Below are positions 746 through 26,548 of a stretch of DNA of 51,545 bases, in pieces. The notes under the pieces are model-generated. The model did no database searches and was not told the DNA's origin. It saw only the letters and a program-made list of their open reading frames with translations. Source of the stretch: Gammaproteobacteria bacterium (GTDB lineage Bacteria; Pseudomonadota; Gammaproteobacteria; Thiohalomonadales; Thiohalomonadaceae); assembly GCA_026196575.1 (NCBI GenBank), contig JAPHSX010000065.1, positions 1-51,545 of the forward strand. The letters run 5' to 3'. Made by a program: the position numbers and the translations under genes. Position 1 is the first letter of the stretch, and each line of letters opens with the position of its first letter.

Positions 746-1432
746 ATGCCAGCTGAATCAGCAACCATGCAGCAGCATGCCGCCTATGTCGGTATGTACG
801 AGCGCCACCTGCTGCGCCGCGACGGCAACCCCCTGTTCCGTCTCCCCGCCGCCGACTACAGCGCCAACGAGGTACTGCAGGCACGCCAGCGCGACAGCGA
901 GGAGTTGCAGCAGTTCCACCAGGAGATGCGCGAGGCGATTCAGCAGGCGATCGAGCTGCCGGGCAACGTGGCTAGCGAGGTGATCCTCGAGCTGCGCGGC
1001 AGGCTGGATCAGCTCTACACCCGTTGCAGCGGCTTTGGCAACAGCTGCCGGGAGCACAAGGAGAACCTGCGCAAGCTCATCGACCTGGTGATGAAGGCGG
1101 TGTGGCAGGCCGCCGCCGATGACCCCCAGGCCCGCCTGGAGCTGGAGCAGGAGGAGATGGCACGCCAGCAGCACTACCGCCTGCTGGAATATCCGCTGGT
1201 GGCCGATCTGCTGCGCCCCGACACCCCCATTGCGAGTGATGAGTTGGTCCCCTCCCTGCTGCTGGCCGCCGACGATGAGCTGGAGGCGGTGATGTGGCTG
1301 TTCGAGCGCGAGCAACTGCGACAGATCTGCAATGAGGCAGAGACGCTGTTGCAACAGCGCCGGGCCGAGGGTTTTGCACTGCCGCAGGCGTGGGAAAAAT
1401 TGCAGTTCATGCGGGAGCATCTTGAGGACTGA
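746..1432 (+). CDS. Conserved-type hypothetical protein, helical, acidic
   Basis: A 228-residue protein with no signal peptide or membrane segment that I do not recognise. It is predicted almost all-helical and rich in Glu, Gln, Leu and Arg, including a stretch around residues 45-80 (ARQRDSEELQQFHQEMREAI) with coiled-coil character. It has two cysteines close together (YTRCSGFGNSCREH, near residues 99-107). An in-frame start exists at 722, but the ATG at 746 is preceded by AAGAGGA at good spacing, so 746 is preferred. It has its own transcription unit: a terminator precedes it and an FNR-type promoter follows. A cytoplasmic adaptor or regulator is possible but nothing in the sequence assigns a function. 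Confidence 0.7.
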   Translation: MPAESATMQQHAAYVGMYERHLLRRDGNPLFRLPAADYSANEVLQARQRDSEELQQFHQEMREAIQQAIELPGNVASEVILELRGRLDQLYTRCSGFGNSCREHKENLRKLIDLVMKAVWQAAADDPQARLELEQEEMARQQHYRLLEYPLVADLLRPDTPIASDELVPSLLLAADDELEAVMWLFEREQLRQICNEAETLLQQRRAEGFALPQAWEKLQFMREHLED

Positions 1433-1502: not shown

Positions 1503-1545
1503 TTGACATCGATCAAGGCAAATCAGGGGTGGCCGGGCGGATAAT
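1503..1545 (+). promoter_or_regulatory. Class II FNR/Dnr-type promoter of the hemerythrin operon
   Basis: TTGAC-ATCG-ATCAA at 1503-1516 matches the FNR-family operator TTGAT-N4-ATCAA at 9 of 10 specified positions. A -10-like GATAAT lies at 1540-1545. If transcription starts at about 1551, the operator is centred at -41.5, the canonical class II activating position. The hemerythrin ATG follows at 1573 behind AGGAG. FNR (O2-sensing) and Dnr/NnrR (NO-sensing) share this consensus, so the regulator cannot be named from the site alone. Confidence 0.8.
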
Positions 1546-1572
1546 CTTCCCCCCTTTTCAGGAGCTAGCACG

Positions 1573-2016
1573 ATGACATTCACCAGCCAGATGGGCGCCG
1601 ATCACCACCGCTGCGATGAGCTATTTGCCAGCGTCGAGCAGGCGGTAGAGGGTGGTCAGTGGCCGCAGGCCGCCCAGGCACACCAGCACTTTATCGAGGC
1701 GATGGAACAACATCTGCAGACCGAAGAGCAGCTGCTCTTCCCTGCCTTCGAGGAGGCGAGCGGCATGCGTGAGGGGCCGACCAGCATGATGCGCTACGAG
1801 CACGAACAGATGCGCGAGCTGTTCGCGCAGATGGGAGAGGCGCTGTCGGCCGAGCGCGGCGAGGATTACTTGGGGGCCGCCGAGACCCTGCTCATCCTGA
1901 TGCAGCAGCACAACGCCAAGGAGGAGCAGATCCTTTATCCGATGCTCGATCAGGTACTGGCGCCGCAGGCCGCCACCCTGCTCGCGCAGCTTGAGAGCCG
2001 CATCAAGCAGGGGTAA
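1573..2016 (+). CDS. Hemerythrin HHE-domain protein
   Basis: 147 residues forming one four-helix hemerythrin domain. Probable di-iron ligands are His11/His12, His47 with Glu51 (EQHLQTEEQ), His77 (YEHEQM) and His113 with Glu117/118 (QQHNAKEEQ), in the spacing usual for bacterial HHE proteins. There is no extra N-terminal ScdA domain, so it is not a full YtfE/RIC-type repair protein. Single-domain hemerythrins bind O2 or NO, or help protect and repair iron centres. An FNR-type promoter lies directly upstream, and the DUF2249 and NnrS-like genes follow with gaps of 7 and 4 bases, which together suggest a role in NO or low-oxygen physiology (inference). RBS AGGAG 9 bases before the ATG. Confidence 0.88.
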   Translation: MTFTSQMGADHHRCDELFASVEQAVEGGQWPQAAQAHQHFIEAMEQHLQTEEQLLFPAFEEASGMREGPTSMMRYEHEQMRELFAQMGEALSAERGEDYLGAAETLLILMQQHNAKEEQILYPMLDQVLAPQAATLLAQLESRIKQG

Positions 2017-2023
2017 CCGCGGC

Positions 2024-2302
2024 GTGGAGCACCTCCTCGACGTAAGTGGGCTGGAGGCGCCGGAGCCGCTGCTGCAGGCACTCGGCGCACTGGGGTCACT
2101 GGCAAAGGGGGACTATCTGCGCCTGCAACACCGCATGAAACCGTGCCACCTCTACCCGCAACTCGAGAAGGGCAATTTTGCCTGCGAGACCCGGTGCGGG
2201 GTAGAGGTGGCGTGCGAACTCTTCATCTGGCACCAAGGGGACGAGATGGCGGCCGCCGCCGCGCGCAAGGTTGCCGCCACCCTGCCACCGTGGTCGGAGT
2301 AA
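2024..2302 (+). CDS. DUF2249 domain protein
   Basis: 92 residues from GTG 2024. LLDVSGLEAPEPLLQALGAL opens the small alpha/beta DUF2249 fold, which is SirA/TusA-like in size. Four cysteines are present (MKPCHLYPQL, FACETRCGVEVACEL); whether they bind metal is not known. An upstream in-frame TTG at 1991 would overlap the hemerythrin gene, but the domain begins right after GTG 2024, so that start is chosen. DUF2249 proteins often sit beside hemerythrin and NnrS/oxidase-like genes in denitrifying and microaerophilic bacteria, with no established activity. It ends 4 bases before the next gene and is probably translationally coupled to it. Confidence 0.8.
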   Translation: MEHLLDVSGLEAPEPLLQALGALGSLAKGDYLRLQHRMKPCHLYPQLEKGNFACETRCGVEVACELFIWHQGDEMAAAAARKVAATLPPWSE

Positions 2303-2306
2303 GCAC

Positions 2307-3599
2307 GTGAACTACACCGCCCTCTCCCTCAGCCAGGCCCCGCCGCTCTCGGTGCCGCTGCGCTTCTTTCTTACCGCCCCGCTGTTTCTCGCCGCCGCCG
2401 CGCTGCTCTTCATCTTTGCCGATCCCACCCTGCTGTCGGGCCGCTGGAGTCCGCTGATGCTGGCGCTCACCCACCTCATCACCCTGGGCTTTCTTGCTAC
2501 CTGCATGGTGGGGGCGGTGCAACAGCTGCTGCCAGTGCTGATCGGCACCCCGTTCGGTTCACCGCGACGGGTGGCCGCCCTGCTCCACCTGCCGCTAGTG
2601 GCAGGCATCGCCCTGCTGGTGACGGGGATGGGGCTGACGCGGCCGCTACTGCTGCAGCTGGGCAGCGCCCTGCTGTTACCGGCGTTGCTGCTCTTTATCC
2701 TGCTCACCGCCCACGCTTTGTGGCGTACCCGCTCCCGCCACGCCACGGTGGCGGCGATGGGGCTGGCGCTGCTGGGGCTGCTGTTGCTGGGGGCGATCGC
2801 CCTGTGGGTGTTGCCATTGAGCCACTGGCAGCCGCCGCTGGCCCACCCCTACACCCGCCTGCATATCGGCTGGGGGGCGGTGGGGTGGATTGGCGCGCTG
2901 CTGATCGGTGTCGCCTATCAGGTGGTGCCGATGTTTCAGATCACCCCGGAGTACCCGCCACGGGTGCGCCGCTGGTTGATCCCGGCGCTCGCTCTGCTGC
3001 TGACGGGGTGGAGCCTCTCGCACGACTGGCTACCGATACTGACCCCGTTGCTGGGCCACCTGCTGGCGCTGCTGCTCGCCCTCTTTGCCGCGCAAACGCT
3101 CTGGCTGCAGGAGCAGCGGCGCCGCCGTCTGGCCGATGTCTCGCTCGATTTCTGGCGCCTGGCGATGCTCTCGCTGCTACTGGCGCTGCTGACCTGGGTG
3201 GCGGGGCAGTGGCTCCACTGGCCGCGGTTGGAGCTGCTGACGGGGGCGCTCTTTCTACTCGGTTTTGCCACCTCGGCGGTGAACGGCATGCTCTACAAGA
3301 TCGTGCCGTTTCTGGTCTGGCTGCACCTCAACAGTCGCCTGCAGGCACAGGGGCGCTGGCAAGGGGGGGTGCCCAATATGAAGCAGGTGATCCTGCCGGG
3401 GGTGACGCGCTGGCAGCTTCGCCTGCACCTGCTGGCGCTGGCGCTGTTGTTGCTGACCTTGGCGCTGCCCACCACCATACCGCCCTGGATCGCCGGTGGC
3501 CTCTGGTTGGCAAACGCGCTCTTTCTCTGGTGGAATCTGCTGCAGGGGGTGCGCTGCTACCGGCGTACCTTGCAGGCAGCGCAAGCGGTACCGGTGTAG
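2307..3599 (+). CDS. Polytopic membrane protein, NnrS / heme-copper-oxidase-I-like
   Basis: 430 residues from GTG 2307, with GGAG seven bases upstream; an earlier in-frame start overlaps the DUF2249 gene. It is almost entirely hydrophobic, with about 12 membrane segments and short loops. Recurring membrane-embedded histidines occur in patterns reminiscent of heme-copper oxidase subunit I and NnrS: LALTHLITLGF (His56), YTRLHIGWGAVGW (His186), and GMLYKIVPFLVWLH (His340). The motif GVAYQVVPMFQITPEYP follows the second. NnrS proteins are heme/copper membrane proteins linked to relief of NO stress. I cannot show that this one binds heme or is catalytic. As last gene of the FNR-box operon it ends 4 bases from the convergent nitronate monooxygenase gene. 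Confidence 0.7.
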   Translation: MNYTALSLSQAPPLSVPLRFFLTAPLFLAAAALLFIFADPTLLSGRWSPLMLALTHLITLGFLATCMVGAVQQLLPVLIGTPFGSPRRVAALLHLPLVAGIALLVTGMGLTRPLLLQLGSALLLPALLLFILLTAHALWRTRSRHATVAAMGLALLGLLLLGAIALWVLPLSHWQPPLAHPYTRLHIGWGAVGWIGALLIGVAYQVVPMFQITPEYPPRVRRWLIPALALLLTGWSLSHDWLPILTPLLGHLLALLLALFAAQTLWLQEQRRRRLADVSLDFWRLAMLSLLLALLTWVAGQWLHWPRLELLTGALFLLGFATSAVNGMLYKIVPFLVWLHLNSRLQAQGRWQGGVPNMKQVILPGVTRWQLRLHLLALALLLLTLALPTTIPPWIAGGLWLANALFLWWNLLQGVRCYRRTLQAAQAVPV

Positions 3600-3603
3600 G
3601 CCA

Positions 3604-4761
3604 TCAGGCGACGGCCGGGTCCTTGCCACTGAGCAGATAGGCGATGGTGTCGTGCACCGAGCGCATCTGATCGCCGAAGGGGAGCGGCTCGGAGCCACGG
3701 AAGAAGAGCCCCTTTTCGTAGTTACCCTGCACCGCCGCCTCCAGCTGGGTGTCAATGCAGAACTGGCCCGCATCGGGGTTGCCATCCTTCAGCCCACAGT
3801 GGCTCAGGCACTCGAACCAGACCGCGCAGGTCCCCTTCTCCGGGGTGGCGCGCGAGCGCACCCTCTCTTCACGCTCCAGATACTTTTTCAGCCACGGGGT
3901 AAGCACGGCACGGGCCGGCAGTCCGGCGGTGCTCATAAAGGTGACGACCTCCTCGGGCTTCGCCTCCAGCAGCACCTTCTTGAAATTGGGGTGGGCGTCG
4001 CCCTCCTCGGTGACGGCGAAGGGGGTGCCGATCTGCACCCCGCTGGCGCCCCAGCTGAAGAGCTCCCTGATCTTCTCGAAGGAGTTGATACCACCGGCGG
4101 GGATGAGCGGAATGGGGTCGATCTTCAGCGCCTCGAACACCTTGGGGATCTCGGCCAGCACCCGCTTGAAATCAAAGCGCGCATCGTTGATATCCTCCGG
4201 TTTGGGGGCGCCGAGGTGGCCACCTGCGTAGCGCGGGTGCTCCAGCACGATGGCATCGGGCAGTACCCCCTTGCGCAGCCAGCGTTTAAGCACGGCGCGC
4301 ACCCCGCGCTCCTCGGAGAGGATGGGGATGAGGGCAACATCGGGGTAGTCGCGGGTCAGATCGGGCAGCTCGAAGGGGAGTCCCGCCCCCATGATGATGG
4401 CATTGGCGCCGCTCTGGCATGCCTGTTTGACCAGCTCGGGAAAGCGGTCGACCGCCTTCATCACGTTGACGGCGATAAAGCCGTCGGGGCCGGCGATCTC
4501 CCTGGCGGCCTTGATCTCGCGATCCAGCGCCTCCATGTTGGCATCATCGATGACTTGCCGATCCTTGACCCGATGGGTGCGCGCCATCAGATCCGGATGG
4601 TGGACCCGCAGGTCGATGCTGGCGATGGTGCCGATGGCACCCTCCCTGGCGACGGCGCCGGCCAGTTTATGGGCCGATACGCCGACCCCCATCCCTCCCT
4701 GGATGATGGGCAGCAGTTCGCGGCCGCGAATCTTCAGCTTGGGTAGAGGGGTATCAATCAT
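3604..4761 (-). CDS. Nitronate monooxygenase-like FMN protein
   Basis: 385 residues. A TIM-barrel flavoprotein of the nitronate monooxygenase / 2-nitropropane dioxygenase superfamily: N-terminal PIIQGGMGVGVSAHKLAGAV, NVMKAV, the glycine-rich phosphate-binding IPAGGINSF and GASGVQIGTPFA. The C-terminal part has a Cys-rich segment (CAVWFECLSHCG) typical of the longer subgroup that includes PfaD-like and uncharacterised oxidoreductases. The substrate is not predictable; nitronates, quinones or enoyl groups are known in the superfamily. An upstream in-frame ATG at 4788 lacks an RBS and adds nine non-conserved residues; MIDTPLPKL at 4761 follows TAGGTG and is preferred. Convergent with the hemerythrin operon, divergent from the radical SAM genes. 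Confidence 0.8.
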   Translation of the reverse strand: MIDTPLPKLKIRGRELLPIIQGGMGVGVSAHKLAGAVAREGAIGTIASIDLRVHHPDLMARTHRVKDRQVIDDANMEALDREIKAAREIAGPDGFIAVNVMKAVDRFPELVKQACQSGANAIIMGAGLPFELPDLTRDYPDVALIPILSEERGVRAVLKRWLRKGVLPDAIVLEHPRYAGGHLGAPKPEDINDARFDFKRVLAEIPKVFEALKIDPIPLIPAGGINSFEKIRELFSWGASGVQIGTPFAVTEEGDAHPNFKKVLLEAKPEEVVTFMSTAGLPARAVLTPWLKKYLEREERVRSRATPEKGTCAVWFECLSHCGLKDGNPDAGQFCIDTQLEAAVQGNYEKGLFFRGSEPLPFGDQMRSVHDTIAYLLSGKDPAVA

Positions 4762-4772
4762 GCAACACCTAC

Positions 4773-4803
4773 TTGAGTCACGAGGCATAAAGGACGCTAT
4801 GAT
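4773..4803 (+). promoter_or_regulatory. Possible sigma-70 promoter for the radical SAM pair
   Basis: TTGAGT (4773-4778) and TATGAT (4798-4803) separated by 19 bases, upstream of the radical SAM gene starting at 4888. The leader holds an imperfect hairpin around 4836-4859 (GAGTGGGGGCGC and GCGCCCACTC). The long spacer makes this weak evidence. Confidence 0.35.
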
Positions 4804-9173: not shown

Positions 9174-10292
9174 TCACGGCTGGTAACGAATACCCTGTTG
9201 CGCCAGGTAGTCGATAACCGCCGCCCGCTCGCCCTTGAAGGCGATCTGTTTTTCGTTGCTCTGAATCTGGTAGTCATACATCGGGTCGTAGTAGTTGCCG
9301 AGCAGTTCGCGGATCCAGTCGCGGTGGGCGTCAAACTCGCCGTGATCGCGCTGTTGTGCGATGGCGCCCTGCATCACGGCGCGCAGTTGGGCGTGGCGCG
9401 CGGCGCCAAGGCGCTTCTTGATCTTGTCGAGGCTGGCGAGCAGGTAGTCGGCCCACTGGTTAAAACCTTCCGCCTCGCCGTAGAGGGCGGCGTGTTCGGC
9501 CAGCGCCTCGTGGATGTACTCCTGGTGGGTGTTCTCCACCCGCTCTTCCAGGCTCGCCTCAAGCAGCACCAGCGGCGAGTCGCGGAACTTGTCGCGAATG
9601 GCGTCGGGCATAAAGCAGGAGCCAACATTGCGGTGCTCATCCTCCACCACGAAGGGGGGGTTGCCGGCGGCGCGCAGCTTGATGAGCTCAATGGAGAGGG
9701 CGTTCTCGAAGCTGATCTGGCGCGGCTGCGGGGTGGCGTGGTTGCCGAAGGCGGAGCCACGGTGCCAGGCGAGCCCCTCCAGGTCGACCATCGGTGAGAG
9801 CTTATGCAGCAGCAGGGTCTTGCCGACCCCGGTGCGCCCGCCGATGACGATGGGGTGTACCTCACGCGCGCTCACCTCCAGCTCGTCGATAAGAAAACGG
9901 CGCAGCGCCTTGTAGCCGCCGCGGATACGCGGATAGCGGATGCCGCTCGCCTCATAGAGCCACCGCTGGGCGATCTTCGAGCGCATACCGCCGCGAAAGC
10001 AGTAGAGCACGCCGTCGGGGTGGCTTTCTGCGAAGGCCCGCCACGCGGCGATACGCTCATCCTTTTTCTTGCCGGTGACCAGCTCGTGGCCGAGGTCGAT
10101 GGCGGCGTTCTGTCCCAGGTGCTTGTACTGCCTGCCGATCTGCTCGCGCTCGGCATCATTGATGAGACAGTGATTTTCGGCATGGGGAAAGGCACCCTGG
10201 TAGAACTCGACGGGGGCGCGCACGTCGAGCAGCGGTACCCCCTCGATAACCAGGCGGCGGAAATCTTCTACCTGTGGCAGCTCTTCTGACAT
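9174..10292 (-). CDS. mnmH: tRNA 2-selenouridine synthase MnmH
   Basis: 372 residues. An N-terminal rhodanese domain (LLDVRAPVEFYQGAFPHAEN) with catalytic Cys98 in VLYCFRGGMRS is followed by a P-loop domain (GGRTGVGKT, about residues 144-152). The enzyme geranylates 2-thiouridine at the wobble base and replaces sulfur with selenium from selenophosphate. The length fits the E. coli protein (364). The start at 10292 is 13 bases after the selD stop; the open frame continues upstream through selD but without homology. The pairing with selD shows where the selenium donor is used in this genome; no selA or selB is in view. Confidence 0.95.
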   Translation of the reverse strand: MSEELPQVEDFRRLVIEGVPLLDVRAPVEFYQGAFPHAENHCLINDAEREQIGRQYKHLGQNAAIDLGHELVTGKKKDERIAAWRAFAESHPDGVLYCFRGGMRSKIAQRWLYEASGIRYPRIRGGYKALRRFLIDELEVSAREVHPIVIGGRTGVGKTLLLHKLSPMVDLEGLAWHRGSAFGNHATPQPRQISFENALSIELIKLRAAGNPPFVVEDEHRNVGSCFMPDAIRDKFRDSPLVLLEASLEERVENTHQEYIHEALAEHAALYGEAEGFNQWADYLLASLDKIKKRLGAARHAQLRAVMQGAIAQQRDHGEFDAHRDWIRELLGNYYDPMYDYQIQSNEKQIAFKGERAAVIDYLAQQGIRYQP

Positions 10293-10305
10293 GGGGCAGG
10301 GCTTG

Positions 10306-11349
10306 TTATTTGATGGTAATGAGCGGGCCGTCGCCCACCTCCAGCAGGCGTCCGATGGGCAGCAGCTCCATCCCCTCGGCCACGGTGACGGCATAGAACT
10401 CCGCCTCGCACTCCGGGTCAACAGCCACCAGCAGGCCGCCGGAGGTCTGCGGGTCACAGAGCAGGGCGCGCTGGGTGTCGCTCATCGCGCCGACCTTGTG
10501 GCCGTAGCTGGCGAAATTGCGCTCGGCACCGCCCGGTGAGCAGCCCATGGCGATGTACTCCTCGATATGGGGCAGCCTGGGCACCGCGGCGTAGTCAATC
10601 TCGGCACGCACCCCGCTCCCCTCGCACATCTCGCGCAGATGGCCAAGCAGACCGAAACCGGTAACGTCGGTCATCGCCCTGACCCCGCCAAGCTGGCCGA
10701 AGGCGGTGCCGATCTGGTTGAGCTGGCACATGGTGTCGGGGGCAAGACGCTCATGTTCTGGCTGCAAGAGCCCCTTCTTGCCCGCGGTGGTGAGGATACC
10801 GATCCCCAGCGGCTTGGTGAGATAGAGGCGGCAGCCGGGGGTGGCGGTGTTGTTCTGCTTGATCTTGTGGTTGTCGACGAGGCCGGTGACGGCGAGGCCG
10901 AAGATCGGCTCCGGCGAGTCGATGGAGTGGCCACCGGCCAGCGGGATCCCCGCATCGCGGCAGGCGGCACGACCACCGTCCACCACCTGGGCGGCGACCT
11001 CCGGCCCCAGCTTGTCGATGGGCCAGCCGAAGATGGCGATGGCCATCAACGGCTGGCCACCCATGGCATAGACATCGGAGATGGCGTTGGTGGCGGCGAT
11101 ACGCCCGAACTCGAAGGGGTCATCGACGATGGGCATGAAGAAGTCGGTGGTGCTGATCACCGAGCGGCCGTCGCCCAGGTCATAGGCGGCGGCGTCGTCG
11201 CGCGAATCGTTGCCCACCAGCAGCCGCGGGTCAAGCGGCACGGCAAAGCCGCTGTTGAGGATCTCCTCCAGCAAGTTGGGGGCGATCTTGCAGCCGCAGC
11301 CGGAGCCATGGCTGTATTCGGTCATGCGGATAGCGGGCTTCTGTGACAT
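10306..11349 (-). CDS. selD: Selenophosphate synthase SelD
   Basis: 347 residues. The N-terminal [12 protein letters not shown] carries Cys18 at the catalytic position (Cys17 in E. coli), so this is the Cys form and needs no UGA recoding. An ATP-binding AIR-synthase-like core follows ([49 protein letters not shown]). It makes selenophosphate from selenide and ATP. It is the first gene of a two-gene unit with mnmH and diverges from the Sel1-repeat gene across 123 bases. Confidence 0.96.
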
Positions 11350-24806: not shown

Positions 24807-26228
24807 TCAGGCGGTGGCAACGGCGGCGCTAACACGCCGACCGGCTGCCTGACGAATGGTCATTACCACGTTGTAGAGCATGATGGCGCCACCCAGCCAG
24901 AAGATCATGCCGCCGATGGCGCGCATCGCGTAGTAGGGGTGCATCTCGTAAACCGACTCGGCGAAGGTGTAGAGCAGCACGCCGTTGTCGTCATACATGC
25001 GCCACATCATCCCCTGCATGATGCCGGAGACCCACATCGCGGTGATGTAGACCACGGTGCCGATGGTGGCCAGCCAGAAGTGGGTGTTGACCAGCTTGGG
25101 CGAGTAGATGCGCGTATCCCACAGCTTCTCCACCATATGGTAGATGGCGCCGGAGGCGACCATCGCCACCCAGCCGAGGGCGCCTGAGTGGACATGGCCC
25201 ACAGTCCAGTCGGTGTAGTGAGAGAGGGCATTAACGGTCTTCGCCGACATCACCGGACCTTCGAAGGTGGACATGGCGTAGAAGGCCAGGGACATGATGA
25301 GAAAACGCAGGATATAGTCGTCGCGCAGTTTGTCCCAGGCACCGGAGAGGGTCATCATGCCGTTAATCGCACCGCCCCAGGAGGGAATGATCATCGCCAG
25401 CGAGACAGCGGCGCCAAGCGAGCCGGTCCAGTCGGGCAGCGCGGTGTACTGCAGGTGGTGCGCCCCCAGCCAGACATAACCGAACATCAGCGCCCAGAAG
25501 TGAATCACCGAGAGGCGGTAGGAGAAGATCGGACGGTTGGCCTGCTTCGGCACGAAGTAGTACATGATGCCGAGGAAGCCGGCGGTGAGATAGAAGCCTA
25601 CCGCGTTGTGGCCCCACCACCACTGAATCATCGCATCCTGCACCCCGGAGAAGACGGAGTAGGAGTCCCACAGACCCACCGGAATGGCCAGGGAGTTGAC
25701 CACATGCAGGTAGGTGATCATCACCATCATCCCCATGAAGAACCAGTTCGACACATAGATGTGGCTGGTCTTGCGGGTGGCCACGGTCATCACAAAGTTC
25801 ACCGTATAGGCGATCCAGACCAGGGCGATGGCAATGTCGAGCGGCCACTCCAGCTCGGCGTACTCCTTGCCGGAGGTGAGCCCCAGCGGCAAGGTGATCA
25901 CGGCGCCGACGATAATGAGGTTCCAGCCCCAGAAGGTGAACCACGCCAGCTTGTCACTCCACAGGCGGACACCGCAGGTGCGCTGCACCGAGTAGAAGGC
26001 GGTGGCCATCAGCACGCAACCCCCAAAGGCGAAGATCACCGCATTGGTGTGCAGGGGACGCAGGCGGCCAAAACTGAGCTCGGCCAGGTCAAAGTTTAGA
26101 ACCGGCCAGGCCAGCTCCGATGCAATGTAGACACCCAGCAGGGTACCCACAACCAGATAGACGACCGCCATCACGGTGAACCACCGCACGACGTCGAAGC
26201 TGTACCTCTCTACTTGTGTCGTTGCCAC
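24807..26228 (-). CDS. ccoN: cbb3 oxidase catalytic subunit CcoN
   Basis: 473 residues from GTG 26228, with AAGGAG eight bases upstream; the open frame extends further upstream but has no RBS. Twelve membrane helices. Heme and CuB ligands can be placed: [12 protein letters not shown] (low-spin heme b), [25 protein letters not shown] (CuB His and the cross-linked Tyr typical of the C family), [13 protein letters not shown] (CuB His pair) and [12 protein letters not shown] (heme b3 and heme b His). It reduces O2 to water with high affinity. First gene of ccoNOQP-x-GHIS under an FNR-type promoter. Confidence 0.97.
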
Positions 26229-26500
26229 GAGTAGTCTCCTTTTTGTTATGACAAAACTGTAAGGGCCATATCTGCACGGATGGCGCCAAGAGATGCAACA
26301 GGGACGACACCATCGCGGCCTTCGCTCACCAGCACCGCCCGCTGCGCCCCGCAAAGCAGGGCATCTTGCTGAGATGCCTGTCGATAAAAGAGTCTAGCCA
26401 CTCTGCACGACTCCGCAGCGGCCAAGAGTGGTGGAGCCCCTCTCAACCCGCCTCCTCCCTGGCCCGGCCCATCAGATCCAATCCGACGGCATGCCCGACA
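26229..26500 (-). other. Long untranslated leader of the cco operon
   Basis: If transcription starts at about 26500 (see promoter), 272 bases precede the ccoN GTG. There is a hairpin at 26360-26378 (GGCATCT with AGATGCC, TGCTG loop) and otherwise no recognised riboswitch. A 111-codon frame on the same strand (26246-26581) has no RBS and begins upstream of the start site, so it is not counted as a gene. Confidence 0.45.
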
Positions 26501-26505
26501 ACCAC

Positions 26506-26548
26506 ATGATAGACGCGGAAACAATACCAGAATCTTGATATATGTCAA
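26506..26548 (-). promoter_or_regulatory. Class II FNR-type promoter of ccoNOQP-GHIS
   Basis: On the minus strand TTGAC-ATAT-ATCAA (26548-26535) matches the FNR operator at 9 of 10 specified positions. TATCAT (26511-26506) is a 5/6 -10 element. A start at about 26500 puts the operator centre at -41.5. FNR or Anr control of cbb3 oxidase genes is well known, and this site fits it exactly. Confidence 0.85.

Follow-up and report, generated by a model that had tools for sequence, protein, structure and literature searches.

A conserved hemerythrin-DUF2249-membrane protein operon led by an FNR-type box and linked to denitrification

Introduction

What might a soluble hemerythrin-like protein, a small DUF2249 protein and a polytopic membrane protein do together when their genes are packed behind a single FNR/Dnr-type operator? 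The question is raised by a locus near the start of a 51,545-nucleotide stretch of gammaproteobacterial DNA (family Thiohalomonadaceae, contig JAPHSX010000065.1), which was analysed as a whole and is referred to here as the window. An initial annotation, made from the letters of the sequence alone, proposed that the three genes form a sensing, scavenging or reduction module for NO or O2, and described the membrane protein as NnrS-like or oxidase-I-like. The components of this trio and their pairwise associations are already known; a three-gene, FNR-box-led hemerythrin-DUF2249-membrane unit was not described in the literature searched, in which three papers mention DUF2249 or COG4309. DUF2249 proteins and non-catalytic oxidase relatives have long been associated with denitrification but have no assigned function, and a compact, widely conserved trio with a conserved promoter provides a defined set for joint expression, deletion and assay. 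Should NO handling be its role, the trio would be relevant to the ways in which denitrifiers, sulfur oxidisers among them, keep NO damage and N2O release in check.

Organization and conservation of the operon

The three genes lie on the plus strand and constitute one tight operon (1573-3599). The first (1573-2016) has an ATG start preceded by AGGAG and encodes a hemerythrin-like di-iron protein of 147 aa, the second (2024-2302, GTG start) encodes a 92-aa DUF2249 protein, and the third (2307-3599, GTG start) encodes a 430-aa membrane protein with 12 helices. All three open reading frames are present as first described, and the tight spacing was confirmed, with 7 bases between the hemerythrin and DUF2249 genes and 4 bases between the DUF2249 and membrane protein genes. 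Upstream, a gene unrelated to the trio ends at 1432 and, downstream, a nitronate monooxygenase-like gene (3604-4788, minus strand) is convergent with the trio, so the operon is complete. The upstream neighbour (746-1432, plus strand), which lies 5' of the operator, encodes a 228-aa product that matches no Pfam or NCBIfam family above cut-off. The product of the convergent gene is a flavoprotein, and strong homologues of it are encoded near the membrane protein gene in nine related loci and likewise in two distant ones. A search of the whole window against Rfam gave no matches.

The membrane protein was used to search 84,980 species genomes, from which the 80 best relatives were kept. The order hemerythrin-DUF2249-membrane protein on one strand was found in 75 of these 80 similarity-selected loci, where the DUF2249 and membrane protein genes commonly overlap by 4 bases. 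Since the 80 loci were selected by similarity, even samples of the class and the phylum were added. The membrane protein gene occurs in 27 of 232 genomes of the class sample, and 18 of the 20 loci fetched from it hold the complete trio in the same order. Conservation outside the source genome, on which the initial annotation had made its proposal depend, is borne out. In the phylum sample (48 of 299 genomes with the membrane protein gene), more distant relatives have this gene with DUF2249 alone, or opposite a hemerythrin gene that is read in the divergent direction and has an FNR box close by, and some have neither hemerythrin nor DUF2249 within the stretch examined. Five distant loci have a hemerythrin gene divergent from the membrane protein gene and no detected DUF2249 gene; an exact FNR box is close at hand, in most cases in the interval that separates the two genes. 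Eight further distant loci pair the membrane protein gene with DUF2249, which often follows it directly, and no hemerythrin gene was detected there. No annotated relative was found in a plasmid search.

Operator and promoter

The operator TTGACATCGATCAA (1503-1516, unstranded, centre 1509.5) is a perfect FNR-family site that matches the consensus exactly. A -10 hexamer, GATAAT (1540-1545, plus strand), begins 23 nt past the end of the box and predicts a transcription start at about 1551-1553, which places the centre of the box between -41.5 and -43.5. The box had initially been assigned to the class II position, exactly at -41.5; the class II assignment holds, with this predicted range in place of the single value.

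In the genome (2.7 Mb), TTGAY-N4-RTCAA occurs in exact form 17 times, compared with 2 times for the reversed pattern; several of the 17 sites fall within coding sequence, so not all of them are functional. Others are located upstream of norC, nirS (cd1 nitrite reductase), ccoN and a NosR-like ORF of 703 aa that we read as NosR. The window contains one more exact FNR box, TTGATATATGTCAA (26535-26548), which lies 5' of a cbb3 oxidase ccoN-ccoO cluster on the minus strand (24807-26354 and downstream); a TATCAT hexamer is found about 23 bases past this box.

Comparison of orthologues is a stronger test of the operator than this genomic site count. The exact box is present in 41 of 76 orthologous upstream regions, where about 0.07 would be expected (mean after mononucleotide shuffling), and a -10-like hexamer follows 21-24 nt past the box in 36 of 42 promoters, namely the 41 box-bearing orthologues and that of the window (shuffled mean, 3.8). 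A palindromic box and a -10 element at fixed spacing, the arrangement of a class II promoter, are thus conserved in orthologues. The exact box is absent from about half of the orthologues, mostly from Thiobacillaceae and Thiotrichaceae. In 15 loci, Thiobacillus-type orthologues that lack the FNR box share another conserved element before the operon, approximately CATACRACATNTTGTG...GTCAAGATGAATTT, which is positioned upstream of the hemerythrin gene and is possibly a site for another regulator.

Among the several Crp/Fnr proteins encoded in the genome of the window, one carries FNR-type cysteines and another, Dnr-like, lacks them; a recognition motif of the E-x-x-S-R type occurs in all four FNR-like members. 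Because several such regulators are encoded, the box does not tell FNR from Dnr. Control by the FNR family, as first proposed, is backed by the conserved box and its spacing, by gene order and by the denitrification neighbours described below.

Association with denitrification

Matches in the flanks of the 80 loci include dnr (24), the nirS family (18, some of them partial), norC (11), norB (7), norQ (6) and nosR (3), and the loci of the class sample add further dnr/nir/nor/nos-type neighbours. The genome of the window itself encodes nirS and norCB. In the class sample, nirS or norB is found in 25 of the 27 genomes with the membrane protein gene versus 60 of the 205 without it (Fisher p = 1.7e-10, a value inflated by phylogenetic relatedness; physical adjacency in many families is independent of kinship). 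The two remaining genomes with the membrane protein gene have neither nirS nor norB by the searches used. Taken together, genomic context and regulation provide good support for a link between the trio and denitrification or NO handling. A role as a replacement for NorB was also considered and rejected, as no enrichment was seen in the class sample (4 of 11 nirS+ norB- genomes versus 14 of 35 nirS+ norB+ genomes).

The hemerythrin-like protein

The product of 1573-2016 matches the hemerythrin family PF01814 (E=3e-22) with a domain that begins at residue 5. Across 63 orthologues, H11, H47, E51, H77, H113 and E117 are invariant and correspond to the di-iron ligand set; second-shell E76, C14 and D15 are also invariant. 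By sequence, the best match among solved structures in the PDB is Escherichia coli YtfE (E=1.5e-12), whose ligands are H84, H129, E133, H160, H204 and E208, with E159 hydrogen-bonding a ligand (PMC9268430). Direct alignment pairs H47, E51 and H77 with H129, E133 and H160, and E76 with E159; H113 and E117 were assigned to H204 and E208, and H11 to H84, by motif and order. The protein therefore has the four His and two Glu ligands within a hemerythrin fold that characterize the RIC/YtfE/NorA group, and shares with YtfE, RIC, NorA and DnrN the Glu beside the third His (E159 in YtfE) and the connection to NO and denitrification.

It differs from them in other respects. At 147 aa, it has no N-terminal ScdA domain with vicinal cysteines, the domain whose di-Cys motif delivers electrons in YtfE (PMC9052748). 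Its scores fall below every RIC cut-off of NCBIfam (42.7 bits versus the 254 set for the YtfE equivalog, and 36.9 versus 204.7 for RIC), and its gene is in one operon with that of a membrane partner. From its sequence, the protein looks like the core of RIC without being filed as RIC. Catalysis by the di-iron protein of the trio is uncertain, because the NO reductase activity of YtfE is itself very low (PMC9052748).

The DUF2249 protein

Membership of the second product in DUF2249 (PF10006) is supported by 32.2 bits against a gathering cut-off of 29.5, and its structural model (pLDDT 93.5) has SirA-like, TusA and YeeD proteins as its best fold matches, which identifies a TusA/SirA fold in the predicted structure. 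In contrast to TusA, the position of the catalytic Cys (CPxP motif) is occupied by A12 here, and by Ala or Pro in each of the 49 orthologues, which makes TusA-type sulfur transfer unlikely. The cysteines of the protein itself had been put forward as a functional hint; none is conserved among the 49 orthologues, and the hint was dropped. We infer that the protein is a docking or adaptor subunit.

The family has been connected to NO before. COG4309 (DUF2249) was described as co-transcribed with norB and under the control of NO regulators, in the NnrR and NsrR regulons, and was suggested to matter to NO reductase function (Rodionov et al., PMC1274295). DUF2249 genes are also induced in denitrifying haloarchaea (Haloferax), and earlier links of the family to hemerythrins and heme-copper oxidase relatives have been summarised (PMC11218638).

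The membrane protein

The 430-aa membrane protein scores below every Pfam and NCBIfam cut-off, and its profile gave no significant sequence match to heme-copper oxidases of solved structure. Profile comparison with NorB was not significant either, with a NorB alignment that is shallow. Its predicted structure (pLDDT 95.2, 12 helices) superimposes over about 380 residues on CcoN (Z 33.9) and on cNOR (Z 31.6 and 30.0), which points to the subunit I fold of heme-copper oxidases and NO reductases; this assignment is that of a predicted model, and a shared fold shows no function. The early description as oxidase-I-like agrees with the predicted fold.

Only three His residues are conserved in at least 90% of 67 sequences: H56 (helix 2), H186 (helix 6) and H340 (cytoplasmic end of helix 10). 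These do not make up the six-His set for low-spin heme, high-spin heme and CuB/FeB. Read from the alignment, the spacing to a helix-end proline (H56-P76 and H186-P208) equates H56 with the low-spin heme ligand in helix 2 of NorB. Unlike heme-copper oxidases and NorB, which the protein resembles in whole-chain fold and in this helix 2 His, it lacks a His at the heme positions of helix 10 (from an alignment reading rather than a measured superposition) and also the helix 7 His pair, and these absences rule out a standard binuclear centre. His conservation suggests that a single heme could possibly be held between H56 and H186. The most conserved stretches, YQVVPMFQxT and GMLYKIVPFLxWLHL, are on the cytoplasmic side by the positive-inside rule, and it is at this conserved face that the two soluble partners would dock.

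The label NnrS did not survive. NnrS (PF05940) is likewise a 12-helix membrane protein tied to NO and denitrification, but the trio protein has no PF05940 match at E<=1 and no profile similarity (hhalign probability 0.4%), its conserved His are different (H63/H65/H306/H328 in NnrS versus H56/H186/H340), and the genome has a genuine NnrS gene at another site. Pei et al. 2014 reportedly counted NnrS among the heme-copper oxidase homologues (HCOH) and are said to have defined HCOH families that include it. The three-unit HCOH proteins of that study are a further point of comparison and a candidate group for the trio protein: it agrees with them in helix number (12) and in the small number of conserved His, possibly compatible with one heme, and they share the denitrification context and DUF2249 neighbours (HCOH side summarised in PMC11218638). 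Separately, another membrane protein, of 443 aa, was noted at locus L107 (G000:C69:18485-18715); its match to COX1 is weak (E=0.002), and locus L157 encodes a relative (9292-10692) roughly 3 kb on the 3' side of the membrane protein gene.

Proposed function and alternative explanations

On a modest balance of probability, we consider the operon to be an accessory NO-handling module of denitrification, in which the most likely arrangement is a cytosolic di-iron protein, putatively reactive towards NO or nitrite, that works with a single-heme membrane partner. Low O2 and/or NO would activate an FNR/Dnr-type regulator, which would bind the box at about -41.5 and recruit RNA polymerase. By analogy with YtfE and NorA, the di-iron site of the cytosolic hemerythrin may bind NO or nitrite, and may then buffer or slowly reduce it. 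The membrane protein, probably with one heme between H56 in helix 2 and H186 in helix 6, could trade electrons or ligand with its di-iron partner at the conserved cytoplasmic face formed by Q73, Y204-Q211 and K331-H340. The DUF2249 protein, a TusA fold without the sulfur-carrying Cys, would serve as the docking or adaptor subunit. We hold this division of labour, with di-iron NO/nitrite chemistry, a single-heme membrane partner and a DUF2249 adaptor, with moderate confidence.

Alternatively, the trio might measure NO, nitrate or O2 and tune the FNR/Dnr regulon, with DUF2249 as a signal relay. The Thermus DUF2249 proteins DrpA and DrpB are proposed nitrate sensors that alter nar expression (PMC6282519), and the trio adjoins dnr in many loci (the 24 matches among 80). 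However, the Drp proteins are periplasmic or membrane-bound and no signal peptide was seen in the DUF2249 protein of the trio, the trio lacks a signalling output domain and a DNA-binding domain, and a 12-helix protein with a heme-copper oxidase fold is elaborate for a sensor; we regard sensing as unlikely.

A role in assembly or repair, in which the trio supplies iron or heme to NirS, NorCB or Fe-S proteins or stabilises them, is improbable to a similar degree. It would fit the linkage of the trio to norCBQ and nir genes, the suggestion by Rodionov et al. that COG4309 is important for NO reductase function (PMC1274295) and the original account of YtfE, in which it gives iron to Fe-S repair (PMC9268430), an activity that is disputed (PMC9052748). 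However, the trio is missing from 60 of the 85 nirS- or norB-bearing genomes of the class sample and hence is no general requirement for the assembly of NirS or NorB.

We give still less weight to a membrane-coupled reductase of a new kind, in which the cytosolic di-iron protein would reduce NO or nitrite. With the quinol or cytochrome c pool as its electron source, the single-heme, oxidase-fold protein would send electrons across the membrane to the di-iron protein, thereby replacing the ScdA di-Cys domain of YtfE.

Finally, microoxic O2 handling, with a hemerythrin that binds O2 for a high-affinity oxidase and an oxidase relative as its membrane partner, recalls the Anr-regulated Pseudomonas hemerythrin Mhr, which is epistatic to cbb3 oxidases (PMC12403760), and the ccoN gene behind its own FNR box in the window (26535-26548), but appears very unlikely given the YtfE-type ligand set (four His, two Glu), the lack of a CuB ligand set in the membrane protein and the nir/nor/nos/dnr neighbours in relatives. 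Returning to the accessory NO-handling module, the NO and denitrification part of the module first annotated is sustained by neighbours, box and gene order; as between O2 and NO, gene context favours NO.
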